From contig CAMZZN010000002.1 of the NCBI GenBank assembly GCA_947345935.1, forward strand, positions 62,001 through 126,000: DNA of 64,000 nt, read 5' to 3'. Of this stretch, positions 14,654-35,719 are shown piece by piece. A program made the position numbers and the translations under genes. Every line of letters starts with the position of its first letter. Position 1 is the first letter of the stretch. Below the pieces are notes generated by a model. It was given only the letters and a program-made list of their open reading frames with translations. It searched no databases and was not told where the DNA came from. Source of the DNA: an uncultured Ruminococcus sp. (GTDB lineage Bacteria > Bacillota > Clostridia > Oscillospirales > Ruminococcaceae).

Positions 14654-16963
14654 TTAAATCAGAAGGTATGAATCATCGGCAAAATAATAATTATCGTTCA
14701 TAGATAATCTCCAGTAAAAAACGTTCCGTGGATCGACGCTCAGAGTCTTGCCCGGAGCATATTGTTCTATTTTGTCGTATCCGTGATCTATAACTCCTGT
14801 TTCGCCGCTGTCGTCAAGGAAAACATAAACATACGCTGCATCGTCGTCGAACTCCTCTTCAAATTCTTCCGGCATGGGAAGTTCGAGTCCGACCAGCATT
14901 TCTCCTCCGTTTTTTCTGAATGCGTCCAGCGCATATCCAAAACGTGCTTTTGAACATTTATCGTCGTTGGCATAATGAACGTTCGATTCTTTAAACGCCA
15001 ATTTCTCTCTTTCTTCATCAGGAAAATCATTTATATATATACCCTTTTCGCTGTTGCTGCGGTGCAGAAAAGGAACAGCATATTCACTGAACGGAGCTTC
15101 CTCATACTCAGGATAAACTTTTTTTACGGGAACCCATGAAAATTGTATATTGGACTCTTCGTTGTATATTACTCCGAACGGTGCCGTAACGCCCTCGTCG
15201 CTCATTTGTCTTACACTGATGACGCTTTTGCATATCTGAGCGATAACGTTTCCTACAAAATCAATATCGTTTTCCCTGATTCCCAAAACAGCGAGATTCC
15301 TCGAACCAAACTGGGGGAGTCCGGCAGTGAACAAGTCGTACAGTTCTTCGTTTTCGTCCGAGTGGTAAACGTCAATTTTATACAGATATTTTTCGGGAAC
15401 GGGCATGAAGTCCTTTGCTTGCAGACCGACCCAATCAGCTGAAAGCAGCTTTCTGTTTTCAAGATCGGCAAAAACGGGAGCAGAGTTGGCGTTTATGGCG
15501 TCAGCCGCCGCAAGAAGCAGATTATAGCAATACATTTCCTGGTTTTTAATAAATTTGCAGGTAATTACTATCATTGCTTCATAGCTTTCGATGTTCTCGA
15601 TTTTTTCATCGGGAATATAGTGCGCATGGAACAGCTCTGCAATACTGTCAGCTTCTCTGAAAAATAAAGAAAACTCTATTTCCTCATCTATCAGGGTATT
15701 TTCTGTAACAATGTTTAAAACGCCATTTTCTTTATCAAGCGACACGTCTTCGATCTTAGTATCGGGCAAAGCGCTGAATTTGTCGATTATGCATTGTATT
15801 TCCGGAACGCTTTCTGTACTTTTAAAAAGAACAGCGATAGCGGCAGGCTCTGTAGGTACGATGCTGTGGGCAGGCAGATAAAGTTCACCTGTAGGTTCGG
15901 TGGGGTATTCGTAATTCAGCAGATCGTTGTAATGACACGAGCCGTTTCTTTTGTCAAATTTATCTGCAATGTCCTTTGCAATCTCCGCAAAATAATCTCT
16001 CATCTTTTCAAGTTCGTATTCGTTATCAGCGTTATACAGTGGAAAAGACGGCGACAGCTTTATTATTATCTTTTTATGGTCATTATTAATAGCAGCATCA
16101 AAAAATCGAGCGGCAGCATGAGCAAAATGAAATCTCATGTCCGGATTTTTTGAGTCAACAAATATATTTACAGAACGCTTGAAGATATCGTAAGCCTCGT
16201 TTGGCGAGGTAAGCGCCTTGAGAAGAAGAACGTTTGATATCTCTTTAAGAAAATTGCATTCTTCTCCCTTTATCATCGGCATCATCATTTCGGCATAATA
16301 TTCCGCTTCTGCAATATTTCCTGTCTGAGTAAAGTGCTCCACGCATTCGCCGAATGTTGCCTCAGGAATTTCGGCGCAGCTTATTCCACGGTGAAGCATA
16401 TCAGCCAACATTTCCATTGCCTTTTTTTCCGAGCCGTAACGAAGTTCCATGCGGATATCGTTGTTAAGCTCGCAGGCAGCACAGTCGCTTAATTCGTCAC
16501 GTTCAAGCCTTCTGAACTGCTTTTGACATTGTTTCATCTTTTCGATATCCATGTAGGAATAAAAATTCATCTTTTTCATATAGTACGTCCTGAGGGAATA
16601 GCCATATTCCTCACAGCGTCTGCGGAATTCCTCGAAATATTCTTCGATCTTTTCACATGACACCTGATAGAAATCTATCACGTCCTCCAGGATCCACTTG
16701 AAGACCCACATAAGCGAATGATGTTCGCACACATCGCTGTGAGCGTCGTAATATGCCATAAATTCGGGAAACATTATAATTCCTTTAAATAAGTCGTCGT
16801 GCATTACCGATTCGGTTATGTATTTATAACGAAGATCGAACGCTTCGCTGTAATTATGTGCAGCGTCCTCCTCGGCTATAAGTCTTTTGAGGTATTTGTA
16901 CCTTTCTTCACCATGTTTAAGCTGATCGTAAAAAATTTTGTCGAACATTTTTATATCCCCCAT
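14654..16963 (-). CDS. Uncharacterised protein: helical (TPR-like) N-terminal half plus C-terminal domain of unknown function (possibly DUF4026-like, not verified)
   Basis: 769-aa ORF overlapping the 3' end of the upstream Hsp90-like gene by 13 bp; helical repeats inferred from sequence pattern. Confidence 0.7.
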   Translation of the reverse strand: MGDIKMFDKIFYDQLKHGEERYKYLKRLIAEEDAAHNYSEAFDLRYKYITESVMHDDLFKGIIMFPEFMAYYDAHSDVCEHHSLMWVFKWILEDVIDFYQVSCEKIEEYFEEFRRRCEEYGYSLRTYYMKKMNFYSYMDIEKMKQCQKQFRRLERDELSDCAACELNNDIRMELRYGSEKKAMEMLADMLHRGISCAEIPEATFGECVEHFTQTGNIAEAEYYAEMMMPMIKGEECNFLKEISNVLLLKALTSPNEAYDIFKRSVNIFVDSKNPDMRFHFAHAAARFFDAAINNDHKKIIIKLSPSFPLYNADNEYELEKMRDYFAEIAKDIADKFDKRNGSCHYNDLLNYEYPTEPTGELYLPAHSIVPTEPAAIAVLFKSTESVPEIQCIIDKFSALPDTKIEDVSLDKENGVLNIVTENTLIDEEIEFSLFFREADSIAELFHAHYIPDEKIENIESYEAMIVITCKFIKNQEMYCYNLLLAAADAINANSAPVFADLENRKLLSADWVGLQAKDFMPVPEKYLYKIDVYHSDENEELYDLFTAGLPQFGSRNLAVLGIRENDIDFVGNVIAQICKSVISVRQMSDEGVTAPFGVIYNEESNIQFSWVPVKKVYPEYEEAPFSEYAVPFLHRSNSEKGIYINDFPDEEREKLAFKESNVHYANDDKCSKARFGYALDAFRKNGGEMLVGLELPMPEEFEEEFDDDAAYVYVFLDDSGETGVIDHGYDKIEQYAPGKTLSVDPRNVFYWRLSMNDNYYFADDSYLLI

Positions 16964-18708
16964 TCTATAAGTTTTATAAGATTTTCATTCATGATATTCA
17001 TTTCTGCTGCACGTATCGGAAAGCCTCCGGATATAAGCGACTGAATATACATTATTCTTGCATATACAGAAAGCTTTTTGGCGTCGGTTAATTCGGACAG
17101 TTTCATTATCAGCGGATTTTTGCTGTTCAGATAGAGAACAGCGGAAGCGCTGCATTCGATCTCTTTTTCAAAATTATCCAGCATTTCTGAAAACATATCG
17201 TTTGCAGTTTCTTTTACCCTGCCGATATCTCTTTTTATCTCGCCGTCGGCATTTATGCTGTATATGGCGGCAAGCTGGCTGGGTGAGAAACTTTTCAGCT
17301 GTGCAAGACAGTCATAGTCTGCAAGTGCGGAGGAAAACGTATTGAGCATAAATTTAAAATCTTCTTTATTTTCCGCATCTTCAAGCATATCGTCAAGCAG
17401 AGACTTATTCATTTGCTCAACGGCGGCTTTATTTGTTTCGCCGAGTTTTTCTATCAAAGCCTTTTCGTAAACATAACAGGTGTTTACAAGCATCTCATTT
17501 TTTTCGGCAAAAACAGGTCTTAGCTGACGGAAGGAATTGATGTCCGACGTATAGAAAACCGTATTCTGATAATGGGATAATCCGGCGCCGCTGAAAATTC
17601 CAAGGCTTGTTTCAAAAGTAAAATACGGCATGAAAATGTCAAACAATCTATCGTTTTCTGTGGCTATAGATTTAAGCGCCGTTCCGTGCAGCGAAACTAT
17701 TTTTTCGAGAAGCGCCGGTTTTTTTATGGAAAGTCGTTCAAGATATGAAGATATGCACTGAGAAATCTCTTCCCTCGCCTCAGAAAGCAGATCGTCTTTG
17801 TAAAAATCCTCTCGTGACGCTGTCGGACGCAGTTTATCGGTATTGAAAAAGCACTTTACAAAGAACGCCCATTCAGGAAGAATAGAAGCTCCGTCCTCGG
17901 TCAGCAGCATATTTTTCAGATATATCCGATGCTTGTTGACCGAAGCCGCCGACTGAGAATAAGGCAGAATATAGGCTGCACCGCTGAATAGTCCGTTTTT
18001 TGAAACGAGTGGGATATAGTCAAGAAAATCGTACTCCACTCCGAATATCCTTCGTCCCATTTCAAGCGCATTTTCATGCTCGTCACTCTTAAAAGTTCCG
18101 AATAATACGTTTGCACGCACCTTAACGTTATCGGCTGACGAAATATAGATAGGATAGGGGATAGGCATACCGTAATATTTTATACTTTCCAGCACTTCGT
18201 CAAATGTGCAAAGATCGGCATGAGATTCGGAAACGGTTATTATTATCTCCGTTCCGATCTCCATATCGCTTTGTATCTCCTTTACGTCATATCTTCCGTC
18301 GGAAAAACCGTGCCATTCAAGTACCTTGTCGGATTGCTTGAACGACCGTGTTCTGAGTATGATTTCATCGGTCACTATAAAGCAGGAAAGCAAACCTATT
18401 CCGAAACGACCGATAAAGGCTCCGTTATCCGAGCGTTTTGAGGATTCTCCTATTACTGAAATAAATTTATGTATTTCTTCCTCGGTAAGTCCGCAGCCAT
18501 TGTCTCTGAAGCTCAGAGATTTATTGGTTTCAACAAATATGTTTATTTCGGGGGAGGAGTAATCCTTGTCGATATTTTTCCTGAGACTGACGGCGTCAAC
18601 CGCATTTTGCAGAAGTTCACGCAGAAATACCTTTGGCGTACTGTAGAGATGATTGGAAAGGATATCTATCATTCCGCCGAGATTAACATTAAAATGATGT
18701 TCGTTCAT
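16951..18708 (-). CDS. Hsp90-like GHKL ATPase (truncated HtpG-family protein)
   Basis: ELLQNAVDA, DNGCGLTEEEI, GRFGIGLLSCF Bergerat-fold motifs; 585 aa. Confidence 0.9.
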   Translation of the reverse strand: MNEHHFNVNLGGMIDILSNHLYSTPKVFLRELLQNAVDAVSLRKNIDKDYSSPEINIFVETNKSLSFRDNGCGLTEEEIHKFISVIGESSKRSDNGAFIGRFGIGLLSCFIVTDEIILRTRSFKQSDKVLEWHGFSDGRYDVKEIQSDMEIGTEIIITVSESHADLCTFDEVLESIKYYGMPIPYPIYISSADNVKVRANVLFGTFKSDEHENALEMGRRIFGVEYDFLDYIPLVSKNGLFSGAAYILPYSQSAASVNKHRIYLKNMLLTEDGASILPEWAFFVKCFFNTDKLRPTASREDFYKDDLLSEAREEISQCISSYLERLSIKKPALLEKIVSLHGTALKSIATENDRLFDIFMPYFTFETSLGIFSGAGLSHYQNTVFYTSDINSFRQLRPVFAEKNEMLVNTCYVYEKALIEKLGETNKAAVEQMNKSLLDDMLEDAENKEDFKFMLNTFSSALADYDCLAQLKSFSPSQLAAIYSINADGEIKRDIGRVKETANDMFSEMLDNFEKEIECSASAVLYLNSKNPLIMKLSELTDAKKLSVYARIMYIQSLISGGFPIRAAEMNIMNENLIKLIEWGI

Positions 18709-18749: not shown

Positions 18750-18908
18750 ATACTAATCTCCACAATAACAACAGACAAACTTTTGGCACAAATTCCGTCA
18801 TGCTGCGTCGAACATCCTTGATAGACGGAATCCTGCCTTGCGGCGTTCTCCTTGCCTGACAAAATTTCTGCCTGTAATTTTGTCTAATAACATTTTGGGG
18901 ATTAGTAT
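18750..18908. repeat. Candidate MITE / non-autonomous element with terminal inverted repeats
   Basis: ATACTAATCtCCAcAAT...GACAAA at left matches reverse complement of right end ATACTAATCcCCAaAAT...GACAAA; internal ATTCCGTC/GACGGAAT hairpin; no ORF. Confidence 0.55.
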
Positions 18909-18975
18909 AAATTTGCTGTCAGTAATATTTTACCACATTTTTTGTCAATGTGCAATAGTTTTTATTTAATTGTTA

Positions 18976-19025
18976 AAAACAGCGCCGCACAATGAAATGA
19001 TATCACAATTGTGCGGCGCTGTTTT
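18976..19025. terminator. Strong bidirectional terminator hairpin
   Basis: aaaacagcgccgcacaat...attgtgcggcgctgtttt. Confidence 0.85.
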
Positions 19026-20867: not shown

Positions 20868-20934
20868 AAAAAATACCTCCTTTTCCTCACTCATATGACA
20901 AGAAAAGAAGGCATAATGCTTTTAATTGTCCTAT

Positions 20935-21051
20935 GAAGCGGGATGCAAGATGCGAATCGCAGCCGCATGGCTTTCGTCCGCCGGACAACTCCCCGTCCCG
21001 GCAGCACTGGAATACCGGATCTCCGGTATAGCGAACACACCTTTACTCTTC
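20935..21051 (-). ncRNA. Tetrahydrofolate (THF) riboswitch
   Basis: minus-strand GAAGAGTAAAGGTGTG...GATTCGCATCTTGCATCCCGCTTC matches THF aptamer ends (GGAGAGUAGAUGAUUCG...AAUCAUUGCAUCCGCUCC type); P1 GAAG/CTTC and P2 GGTGTG/CGCATC pair; upstream of folT. Confidence 0.85.
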
Positions 21052-21089
21052 AGTGATAATGTCGGCATAATTTTTAATGCCGCATATTT

Positions 21090-21333: not shown

Positions 21334-23640
21334 ATGAGTAATTTATTAAATCCGGAATTTAAGATAAGAGAGGTCGCTGAGCGAATTAGAGCTACACGTG
21401 AGTCGGTAGGTCTGACCCCTGAGGAAATGGCTGAAAAAGTAGGAATGACATCCTTTGAATATCTTGCCTATGAGGGTGGGGCAAAGGATTTCAGTTTCTC
21501 GTTTATCTATAAATTCGCAGGCGCAACAGGCGTTGAGATCACTGATCTCATGGAGGGCGAATCCCCTCATATCAATAGTTTTGATATTACGAGAAAAGGT
21601 GAAGGTCTGCCCATTGCACGCCGAAAGGGTCTTACCTATCAGCGTCTTGCCCCGAACTTCAGAAACAAAATCGGAGAACCGTTCCTTGTTACGATTCCAT
21701 ATGTTGATGAAAAGTTCAGAGTTGCCCATCCTCATACCCATGAGGGACAGGAAATGGATATTGTTGTAAGCGGTCAGCTTAAAGTTCAGGTCGGAGATAA
21801 TATCGAGATCCTGAATGAGGGAGACTCTATATATTATGACAGTTCAGAACCCCACGACGAATGGGCTGTAGGCGGCAGCGAGTGCAAATTCTATGCCGTT
21901 GTATTCGGTGCAAACGCTCCGCAGAGAGCTATCCAGCACCTTGATCCCGTTATTCTGCCCGGTGTTACAAACTTCGATCTTGCAAAGGTGGAAAATCCTG
22001 TTGCAGATAAATTTGTGGAAGTTGAAACCGATGAAAACGGCGCAATGAAGAATATCCGCTTCAAGAACGTTGAATCATTTAATTTTGGCTTTGATGTTGT
22101 CGATGTTCTTGCCGAAAAGAATCCTGACAAGTGCGCTCTCATTTATGTTTCCAACGAAATGGAAGAAAAGCGCTTTACGTTCAGCGATATCAAGAAATAC
22201 TCCAATCAGGCGGCTAATTATTTCCGTTCAATGGGAATCCGCAAAGGCGACAGAGTAATGCTCGTCCTCAAAAGACACTATCAGTTCTGGTTTGCAATCA
22301 ATGCGCTCCATAAGCTTGGCGCTATAGTAATTCCGGCTACAAATCAGCTTGTTCAGCATGATTTCACATATCGTTTCCAGGCAGCCGACGTAAAAGCTAT
22401 CGTCTGCACAGGAGACGGCGATGTTGCACATCAGGTCGATCTTGCCGTTGAGGAATGCGGTATGAACATCATTAAGATGATGGCGCACGGTCAGCGTGAC
22501 GGATGGTTCAGCTTCGACGAAGGCATTAAGGGTTGCAGCGACGTATTTGAACGTCCCACTGATCCGAACGAACTCTCCTGCGGTCATGAGCCTAACCTCA
22601 TGTACTTCACTTCAGGAACCACAGGCTATCCTAAAATTGCGGCGCACAGTCATCTGTATGCGCTCGGTCACTTTGTGACAGCCCGCTACTGGCACAATGT
22701 CGATCCTAACGGCATTCATTTTACTATCTCCGATACGGGCTGGGGTAAGGCTCTCTGGGGCAAACTCTACGGTCAATGGCTCAGCGAGACCTGCGTTTTC
22801 GTTTATGACTTTGACCGCTTTGACGCAAATAAGATCCTGCCTATGTTCGCAAAGTACGGTATAACTACTTTCTGCGCTCCACCCACAATGTTCAGATTCT
22901 TTATCAAAGAAGATCTGTCAAAGTTTGATCTCAGCAGCATCAAGTATGCGACAGTAGCCGGAGAAGCTCTTAATCCGGAAGTATACAATCAGTTCCTCAA
23001 GGCAACGGGAGTAAAGCTCATGGAAGGCTTCGGTCAGACTGAAACAACTCTCGTTATAGGAAATTTCGTAGGTATGACGGCTCGTCCCGGTTCTATGGGC
23101 AAGCCTAATGTACAGTATGATGTTGACATTGTTGATCCGGAAGGAAATCCTGTAAAACCCGGCGAGACAGGTGAGATAGTTATACGCACCGACAAGAATA
23201 CGCCTCCCGGACTTTTCCTGGAATACTATAATGACGAGGAAAAGACAACGGAAGCATGGCATGACGGAATTTATCATACGGGCGACACCGCCTGGAAGGA
23301 TGAGGACGGCTATTATTGGTATGTCGGACGTGTTGACGACGTTATTAAGTCGTCCGGCTATCGTATCGGACCATTTGAGATCGAAAGCGTTATTATGGAA
23401 CTTCCGTATGTTCTGGAATGCGGCGTAAGCGCTGCTCCCGATCCTATAAGAGGTCAGGTCGTAAAGGCTTCTATCGTTCTCACTAAGGGAACTGTCGGAA
23501 CTGATGAACTGAAAAAGGAGATCCAGAATTACGTCAAGGAGCATACTGCTCCTTATAAATATCCGAGGATCGTTGAGTTCCGTGACGAACTTCCAAAGAC
23601 TATCAGCGGAAAGATCAGAAGAGTTGAACTTAAAGGTTAA
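21334..23640 (+). CDS. XRE-HTH + cupin + AMP-dependent acyl-CoA synthetase fusion
   Basis: N-term HTH (IRATRESVGLTPEEMAEKVGMTSFEYLAYE), cupin (HPHTHEGQEMDIVVSGQLKVQVG...SIYYDSSEPHDEW), AMP-binding (YFTSGTTGYPKIA, GEIVIRTD, YHTGDTAWKDEDGYYWYVGRVDDVIKSSGYRIGPFEIE). Confidence 0.93.
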   Translation: MSNLLNPEFKIREVAERIRATRESVGLTPEEMAEKVGMTSFEYLAYEGGAKDFSFSFIYKFAGATGVEITDLMEGESPHINSFDITRKGEGLPIARRKGLTYQRLAPNFRNKIGEPFLVTIPYVDEKFRVAHPHTHEGQEMDIVVSGQLKVQVGDNIEILNEGDSIYYDSSEPHDEWAVGGSECKFYAVVFGANAPQRAIQHLDPVILPGVTNFDLAKVENPVADKFVEVETDENGAMKNIRFKNVESFNFGFDVVDVLAEKNPDKCALIYVSNEMEEKRFTFSDIKKYSNQAANYFRSMGIRKGDRVMLVLKRHYQFWFAINALHKLGAIVIPATNQLVQHDFTYRFQAADVKAIVCTGDGDVAHQVDLAVEECGMNIIKMMAHGQRDGWFSFDEGIKGCSDVFERPTDPNELSCGHEPNLMYFTSGTTGYPKIAAHSHLYALGHFVTARYWHNVDPNGIHFTISDTGWGKALWGKLYGQWLSETCVFVYDFDRFDANKILPMFAKYGITTFCAPPTMFRFFIKEDLSKFDLSSIKYATVAGEALNPEVYNQFLKATGVKLMEGFGQTETTLVIGNFVGMTARPGSMGKPNVQYDVDIVDPEGNPVKPGETGEIVIRTDKNTPPGLFLEYYNDEEKTTEAWHDGIYHTGDTAWKDEDGYYWYVGRVDDVIKSSGYRIGPFEIESVIMELPYVLECGVSAAPDPIRGQVVKASIVLTKGTVGTDELKKEIQNYVKEHTAPYKYPRIVEFRDELPKTISGKIRRVELKG

Positions 23641-34364: not shown

Positions 34365-35444
34365 TCAGTCGAAGTATCCCTTAGCTGCAAGAAGCTCGGC
34401 AAGAAGCACGCCGCCGCCTGCCGCACCTCTTAATGTGTTGTGTGAGAGACAAACAAACTTGTAGTCGTACTGTGTATCTTCACGGAGACGTCCTGCGGAA
34501 ACTGCCATGCCTCCTTCAAGGTTTCTGTCAAGCTTAGACTGCGGACGGTTGTCGTCCTCAAAATAGTGGATAAACTGCTTCGGAGCGCTGGGGAGTTTAA
34601 GTTCCTGGGGAACACCCTTGAAATCAGCCCAGAGCTGAAGTATCTCTTCCCTGGATGGTTTGTTTTCAAAGCTTACGAAAACAGCGGCTGTATGACCGTC
34701 TGAAACGGGAACACGGAGACACTGCGTCGTGATAGAGGGCGTCTCAGCCTTGACGATCTCATTGCCCTTGATCTCTCCCCATACTTTGAGAGGTTCCTGC
34801 TCGGATTTTTCCTCCTCGCCGCCGATAAACGGAATAAGGTTATCTACCATTTCAGGCCATGTCTCAAAGTTCTTTCCGGCGCCGGAAATAGCCTGATATG
34901 TACAGGCAAGAACATTTTTGAGACCGAACTTTCTCAGGGGATGAAGCGCCGGAACGTAACTCTGGATCGAGCAGTTTGATTTAACGGCGATAAAGCCCTT
35001 CTTGGTGCCGAGACGCTCTCTCTGAGCTTTGATGATCTCAATGTGATCCGGGTTTATTTCCGGAACAACCATTGGAACGTCCGGAGTGAATCTGTGGGCG
35101 GAGTTGTTGGAAACGATAGGACATTCAGCTTTTGCGTATGCTTCTTCGAGTGCCTTTATTTCATCTTTTTTCATATCGACGGCGCAGAAGCAGAAGTCTA
35201 CCATTCCGGCGATCTTGTCAATATCCGACGTTGCGTCCATAAGGATCATATCTTTCATGGATTCGGGCATTGGAACTGCCATTTTCCAGCGGTTGCCAGC
35301 GGCTTCCTGATATGTCTGTCCGGCGCTTCTTGGTGAAGCGGCAAGAACCTTGACGCTGAACCAGGGATGATTTTCAAGCAGGGTAGCAAATCTCTGACCT
35401 ACCATGCCCGTTGCGCCGATAATACCAACATTGTACTGTTTCAT
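34365..35444 (-). CDS. asd: Aspartate-semialdehyde dehydrogenase
   Basis: GATGMVGQRF, SNCSIQSY active-site region; start ATG 35442-35444. Confidence 0.95.
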   Translation of the reverse strand: MKQYNVGIIGATGMVGQRFATLLENHPWFSVKVLAASPRSAGQTYQEAAGNRWKMAVPMPESMKDMILMDATSDIDKIAGMVDFCFCAVDMKKDEIKALEEAYAKAECPIVSNNSAHRFTPDVPMVVPEINPDHIEIIKAQRERLGTKKGFIAVKSNCSIQSYVPALHPLRKFGLKNVLACTYQAISGAGKNFETWPEMVDNLIPFIGGEEEKSEQEPLKVWGEIKGNEIVKAETPSITTQCLRVPVSDGHTAAVFVSFENKPSREEILQLWADFKGVPQELKLPSAPKQFIHYFEDDNRPQSKLDRNLEGGMAVSAGRLREDTQYDYKFVCLSHNTLRGAAGGGVLLAELLAAKGYFD

Positions 35445-35481
35445 AAATGATCTCCTTTTATAAAAAATTACTGAAAATAAC

Positions 35482-35504
35482 AAAAACCGGTTGCAAACCG
35501 GTTC
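35482..35504 (-). terminator. Terminator of the lysine riboswitch expression platform
   Basis: minus strand GAACCGGTTTGCAACCGGTTTTTG. Confidence 0.8.
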
Positions 35505-35529: not shown

Positions 35530-35712
35530 ACATCGGTATAAACAATGCCGATAGCTCTCCACCATAAAGCATGATGACAGTCGCAGACCTGTTGAGCCTG
35601 TGACCAGAACTGAATTTACCGGAGACAGTCCTTCGGCGGAATTGCCTTTCATCGGACTTCAAAGGAACGGTCATCCTCTGTCCGCTTACTGATCGCATCC
35701 GCACCTCTACCT
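35530..35712 (-). ncRNA. Lysine riboswitch (L box)
   Basis: minus strand AGGTAGAGGTGCGGATGCGATCAGTA...GTCCGATGAAAGG...GCCGAAGGACTG...GTGGAGAGCTATCGGC, upstream of asd-dapA-dapB. Confidence 0.93.
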
Positions 35713-35719
35713 TGTTACT

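Follow-up and report, generated by a model that had tools for sequence, protein, structure and literature searches.

Does a bacterial Hsp90 work with a partner of its own? The question is raised by two adjacent genes in a 64,000-nucleotide stretch of DNA from an uncultured Ruminococcus sp. (contig CAMZZN010000002.1, positions 62,001 to 126,000; referred to here as the window), one encoding an Hsp90-like ATPase and the other a large protein with a helical N-terminal half. According to a study of Hsp90 co-evolution, in which the hsp90B and hsp90C paralogs were set aside, no obligate Hsp90 co-chaperones had been identified in bacteria (Press et al., 2013). We find that the two genes occur as neighbors in at least five bacterial phyla, and we consider it on balance probable that it encodes a two-component machine made up of a divergent Hsp90 and a dedicated TPR-like solenoid that acts as co-chaperone or client adaptor. 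The pair comprises the following features:

16951-18708, minus strand: Hsp90 gene, an open reading frame (ORF) of 585 amino acids (aa) encoding a divergent Hsp90 of NCBIfam NF010683 / PRK14083 ('HSP90 family protein'), as indicated by profile, fold and tree
14654-16963, minus strand: partner gene, a 769-aa ORF counted from the first in-frame ATG
15914-16963, minus strand: TPR-like alpha-solenoid of the partner (residues 1-350), from an AlphaFold2 model and conservation beside Hsp90 across phyla
14657-15883, minus strand: accessory C-terminal region of the partner (residues 361-769), with DUF4026_N and a weak DUF4026_C

Both ORFs lie where the original prediction, made from the letters of the window, had placed its two-gene unit, with the lengths given there. 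They run in the same direction, Hsp90 gene first, and form an operon.

The ATPase scores 572.1 bits against NF010683 over residues 2-584 (cut-off 455) and 160.2 bits against the canonical HtpG model NF003555, which is under that model's cut-off of 371. A tree of 43 sequences, for which the tool warned of long branches, places 22 PRK14083 proteins and 18 canonical HtpGs on opposite sides of a branch with a Shimodaira-Hasegawa-like approximate likelihood ratio test (SH-aLRT) support of 100. Judged from these sequence comparisons, the NF010683 lineage is well separated from canonical HtpG. The AlphaFold2 model of the ATPase (predicted local distance difference test, pLDDT, 88.3) spans the N, M and C domains, with template modeling scores (TM-scores) of about 0.72-0.74 to full-length Hsp90 chains, so that the description of this protein as truncated has to be dropped. 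Residues E31, N35, D38, G71, G73, G100, F102, G103 and G105 are invariant in a 63-sequence alignment, as is the middle-domain catalytic arginine R299 ('ASRE'), which bears out the earlier observation of intact GHKL motifs. With its N-M-C domains, Bergerat ATPase residues and middle-domain arginine, the protein has the domain and residue features of the Hsp90 superfamily and is predicted to be a complete N-M-C Hsp90 with intact ATPase motifs.

That this ATPase is simply the sole HtpG of its genome is ruled out by a canonical HtpG encoded on another contig (G000:C29, 710 bits), and each of the 7 whole Bacillota genomes tested has canonical HtpG alongside the NF010683-type Hsp90. Bacterial HtpGs have been split into Groups A, B and C, with those of Firmicutes and Actinobacteria in Groups A and C and the two copies of S. 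coelicolor in different groups (Chen et al., 2006; PMC1525184). The phyletic pattern suggests that the window Hsp90 lineage is probably HTPG Group C of that scheme. The Hsp90 paralog itself is already known.

The partner was modeled by AlphaFold2 with a mean pLDDT of 93.6 as an all-helical solenoid at residues 1-350, with helices covering residues 9-340, followed by an alpha/beta region. A Pfam scan of the window partner gave no match in the solenoid half and no TPR hit, and a search of the PDB with the solenoid fold reached no better than E 0.0036, short of the threshold of 0.001. By sequence and by fold, the closest solved structures are TPR and PPR proteins, and a Listeria orthologue of the partner scores over the Pfam TPR_8 cut-off. 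On the strength of the solenoid fold, the Listeria TPR_8 match and these nearest structures, the N-terminal half is predicted to be a TPR-type helical-pair solenoid, in agreement with the helical TPR-like half first described.

The C-terminal half had been called uncharacterized. It matches DUF4026_N at 38.3 bits, above the Pfam cut-off of 27, and thus belongs with a named family, though one that is itself without known function; DUF4026_C reaches 18.6 bits, under its cut-off of 27. Nine of ten relatives of the window partner type carry DUF4026_N. One of the ten matches DUF2314 (E 0.0016), and a DUF2314-like end of the partner is only hinted at. At the examined loci, only some Oscillospiraceae carried the DUF4026 half. 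Because it is the solenoid, not the DUF4026 half, that recurs beside Hsp90 across phyla, the solenoid appears to be the conserved core and the DUF4026 half a lineage-specific accessory that is absent or replaced in other lineages.

Conservation of the gene pair and a possible mechanism

Gene neighborhoods were compared at 80 named loci, which are the best 80 of 493 from one genome-collection scan rather than a random sample. The solenoid gene lies 3' of an NF010683-type Hsp90 gene on the same strand at 68 of the 80, and 60 of those 68 solenoid genes are at most 100 bp from the Hsp90 gene or overlap it. At one locus the solenoid gene is directly upstream of Hsp90, and 11 loci are without any solenoid match, three of which stop at a contig edge (L076, L092, L094). 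These counts uphold the conservation of the partner beside the ATPase on which the original prediction had staked its proposal. According to their record titles, the loci come from Bacillota, Planctomycetota, Myxococcota and Acidobacteriota, and a Streptomyces plasmid copy of the pair adds Actinomycetota. The solenoid gene stands directly 3' of Hsp90 in Paenibacillus, Listeria and Streptomyces, and the flanking genes beyond the pair vary from locus to locus.

This conservation bears on the proposal that the ATPase is a duplicate of the general heat-shock Hsp90 and that the operon merely has two housekeeping genes of separate function transcribed together. In favor of this, Hsp90s serve as general chaperones, and genes without functional ties can share an operon. 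However, adjacency of the pair holds over four or five phyla while other neighbors change, no solenoid gene was found next to canonical htpG at any of 29 loci searched with about 1.5-kb flanks, even at E<10, and the window contains no detectable CIRCE (controlling inverted repeat of chaperone expression) heat-shock element. We consider this explanation quite improbable.

In the mechanism that we favor, the divergent Hsp90 would operate beside an ordinary HtpG and would most likely be bound by the solenoid. None of 60 NF010683-type Hsp90 sequences has a C-terminal (M)EEVD tail, which points to binding through another Hsp90 surface than an EEVD carboxylate clamp would use. The solenoid could then serve as a co-chaperone or client adaptor that delivers selected proteins to the ATPase, and the variable domains that follow it (DUF4026, Sel1, TPR or none), together with repeated duplication of the partner, may set which clients are served.

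The main rival makes the solenoid an obligate client: the dedicated Hsp90 would fold or stabilize it, and the solenoid would do the job in the cell, perhaps acting via its C-terminal domains as a scaffold or sensor. A dedicated chaperone is often encoded next to the protein that it serves. The Hsp90 is also the more conserved of the two proteins (median distance 0.58 vs 0.75 for the partner), and partner copies duplicate and diversify, with two partner matches at 12 loci and three at 2, while Hsp90 stays single; one genome (G020, described below) even has a partner without an NF010683-type Hsp90. Yet Hsp90s without a nearby partner occur as well, and the ATPase residues are invariant despite very different partner C-terminal domains. 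An obligate client strikes us as rather unlikely.

The Hsp90 and the solenoid domain are present in the same 6 of 398 Bacillota genomes (chance of this agreement about 2e-13, relatedness ignored), and the other partner-search matches in these 398 genomes are to the DUF4026 region alone. Pairwise distances among Hsp90s and among partners correlate with r = 0.87 over 61 pairs (permuted labels <=0.10), and the module is patchy, being found in 2 of about 90 same-genus genomes. Several points weigh against a dedicated machine. Five of the six co-occurrence genomes belong to one family, and the co-occurrence test therefore reflects few independent events; shared ancestry likewise contributes to the correlation of distances. 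Eight Hsp90 loci without a solenoid gene are from Oscillospiraceae or related Clostridia metagenome-assembled genomes (MAGs), six with about 5-7 kb of downstream sequence and two with about 2 kb. Conversely, G020 encodes a solenoid-DUF4026 protein (L143:1121-3382) and no PRK14083 Hsp90 that we could find, which may be missing because this genome is 86% complete. Given these eight loci and the orphan solenoid, the Hsp90-solenoid pairing is strong, not absolute. Finally, the link between Hsp90 and partner is genetic only, with the physical step inferred throughout, and the data do not discriminate between co-chaperone and obligate client.

Variation among partners

The partners differ in number and arrangement, and in the G036 genome Hsp90 is flanked on either side by a full-length partner. 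In Listeria monocytogenes (L046:8803-11613), two solenoid proteins in tandem and an SMI1/KNR4 (SUKH) protein are encoded after Hsp90. We infer that the first of these partner copies is lmo0941, a hypothetical Listeria gene reported to be under selection and of unknown function (PMC6901971). What follows the solenoid also varies: Laceyella has Sel1 repeats there, Streptomyces has TPR repeats, and other partners have DUF4026 or nothing. In other Ruminococcus MAGs the solenoid is followed by a conserved domain of about 340 aa with a mean column identity of 60% (carried at L058, L060, L061, L062, L063, L067, L071, L073, L074 and L090), in which no Pfam or NCBIfam match was found among the partner proteins scanned.

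Within the solenoid, three cysteines were followed across relatives:

16472-16483, minus strand: solenoid motif C161-x-x-C164 ('SDCAACE'), whose two cysteines are retained or lost together
16376-16378, minus strand: C196 of the solenoid, never lost where the CxxC is kept

Of 62 sequences, 50 carry C161 together with C164 and 12 lack the two; neither was ever found alone. C161, C164 and C196 are a possible metal or redox site. At the two-partner loci L060, L061, L062 and L072, one copy is without the CxxC and without the long C-terminal extension, and the other has both. Such loss in one copy, with retention of both elements in the other, suggests a division of labor between partners.

Combining these patterns, we tentatively propose, with somewhat less than even confidence, that a deep Hsp90 paralog and its TPR-like adaptor have been inherited together, as one unit, in at least five phyla, that swappable C-terminal domains and the CxxC...C site decide its clients, and that it acts independently of the eukaryotic EEVD mechanism.

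The operon and its surroundings

The operon is flanked by an exonuclease-like gene and folC, and rpoB/rpoC are close by (gene names assigned by eye). Signals around it include:

16957-16961, minus strand: Shine-Dalgarno-like GGGGG for the ATG at 16948, at a spacing of 8 nt, read from the sequence
18976-19025, minus strand: perfect 18-bp stem separating folC from the operon, from an inverted repeat search
18927-18954, minus strand: weak candidate for an extended -10 promoter ahead of the operon, from a consensus scan

The 13-bp gene overlap described earlier depends on taking the first in-frame ATG as the start of the partner. A second ATG at 16948 would give a 764-aa protein with a 2-nt gap after the Hsp90 stop. 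Because the GGGGG lies 8 nt upstream and the shorter protein begins 'MFD', as does the downstream G036 partner, this second start seems more likely, and the overlap holds for the longer version alone.

The 18-bp stem is probably the folC terminator, and the Hsp90-partner pair thus seems to be transcribed on its own. The candidate promoter is a weak one, since the scan found 18 extended -10 sites where 11.9 were expected by chance. Just upstream of the operon, 18750-18908 holds an imperfect 33-nt inverted repeat (76%) with a 93-nt center, of which two diverged partial copies occur elsewhere in the genome; it is possibly a small mobile or repeat element. Farther away, the window contains an ordinary tetrahydrofolate (THF) riboswitch (20934-21052, minus strand) upstream of folC and of a gene that probably encodes a folate transporter subunit, a lysine riboswitch (35544-35717, minus strand) that precedes the gene at 34365-35483, and a 768-aa ORF at 21334-23640 that appears by eye to encode a helix-turn-helix (HTH)-cupin regulator fused to an acyl-CoA synthetase.

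The original prediction had also raised a stress or defense link. In such an NTPase-effector module, the Hsp90-like ATPase would sense a trigger and the partner would carry the output. A weak similarity of the GHKL domain to TmtA defense proteins (48.5 bits) and the patchy distribution within the genus speak for it, but the ATPase has a full-length Hsp90 fold, and the partner contains no recognized nuclease, transmembrane toxin or other effector domain. Nor is there anything resembling a defense island: at E<=1e-10, each PADLOC family matched at most 2 of the 100 genes that flank the loci, the commonest matches being kinase-type PD-T4-6 models in a set that holds 2 Pfam protein kinases, and on the pair itself PADLOC matched only the shared GHKL domain. 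The position of the window operon among the neighbors named above argues in the same direction, and a defense role is in our estimation very improbable. A viral origin was also considered and rejected, as a scan of viral contigs with Hsp90 gave no relatives; the partner does match two records labeled 'Listeria phage', which have lengths of 4.7-5.1 kb and carry no annotation. What survives of the dedicated module first envisaged is an Hsp90 with a TPR-type partner, conserved in its neighborhood and distinct from the genome's HtpG; its defense link finds no support, and a physical co-chaperone relation is likely.

Comparison with known systems

We found no description of the Hsp90-solenoid pairing in open-licence PubMed Central (PMC) papers, which is not proof of its absence from the literature. 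This known Hsp90 paralog thus apparently has a widely conserved, TPR-like partner that is undescribed. A conserved partner gene beside one divergent paralog is a concrete candidate for a dedicated bacterial Hsp90 helper, and the pairing is testable in tractable organisms such as Streptomyces or Paenibacillus. It also offers a starting point for the study of hypothetical genes, lmo0941 among them. In a streptomycete, a review saw no evidence of a specific function for the S. hygroscopicus HtpG (PMC3603443).

By score over cut-off and by clade, the window Hsp90 belongs with the NF010683/PRK14083 family, a family name without a specific function. It shares the N-M-C fold and catalytic residues of canonical HtpG (NF003555), but it falls under the cut-off of that model, lies in a separate clade and has a solenoid neighbor that canonical loci lack. 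The C-terminal half of the window partner is shared with Pfam DUF4026 proteins, whereas DUF4026-region matches elsewhere also occur without the solenoid and in genomes without an NF010683-type Hsp90.

A further comparison is with eukaryotic Hsp90 and its TPR co-chaperones (Hop, FKBP51/52, PP5); both systems link an Hsp90 to a TPR-type helical-repeat protein. In contrast to the eukaryotic proteins, the bacterial Hsp90s end without EEVD (0/60), the link here is known from genes alone, and the solenoid is about 350 residues long with no PDB fold match at the threshold used.

Plasmid records of Pseudomonas aeruginosa (L131:5884-10125) and Xanthomonas vasicola (L129:5950-10173) encode a distant Hsp90-like ATPase followed by a protein of 764-774 aa, the Xanthomonas member of which is annotated as TPR. 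A Nonomuraea relative of this protein has no such Hsp90 within 5 kb, and a profile-profile comparison of the Pseudomonas/Xanthomonas partner with the window solenoid was not significant. The plasmid pairing may thus be similar only in kind, a second, parallel association of an Hsp90 with a TPR protein.

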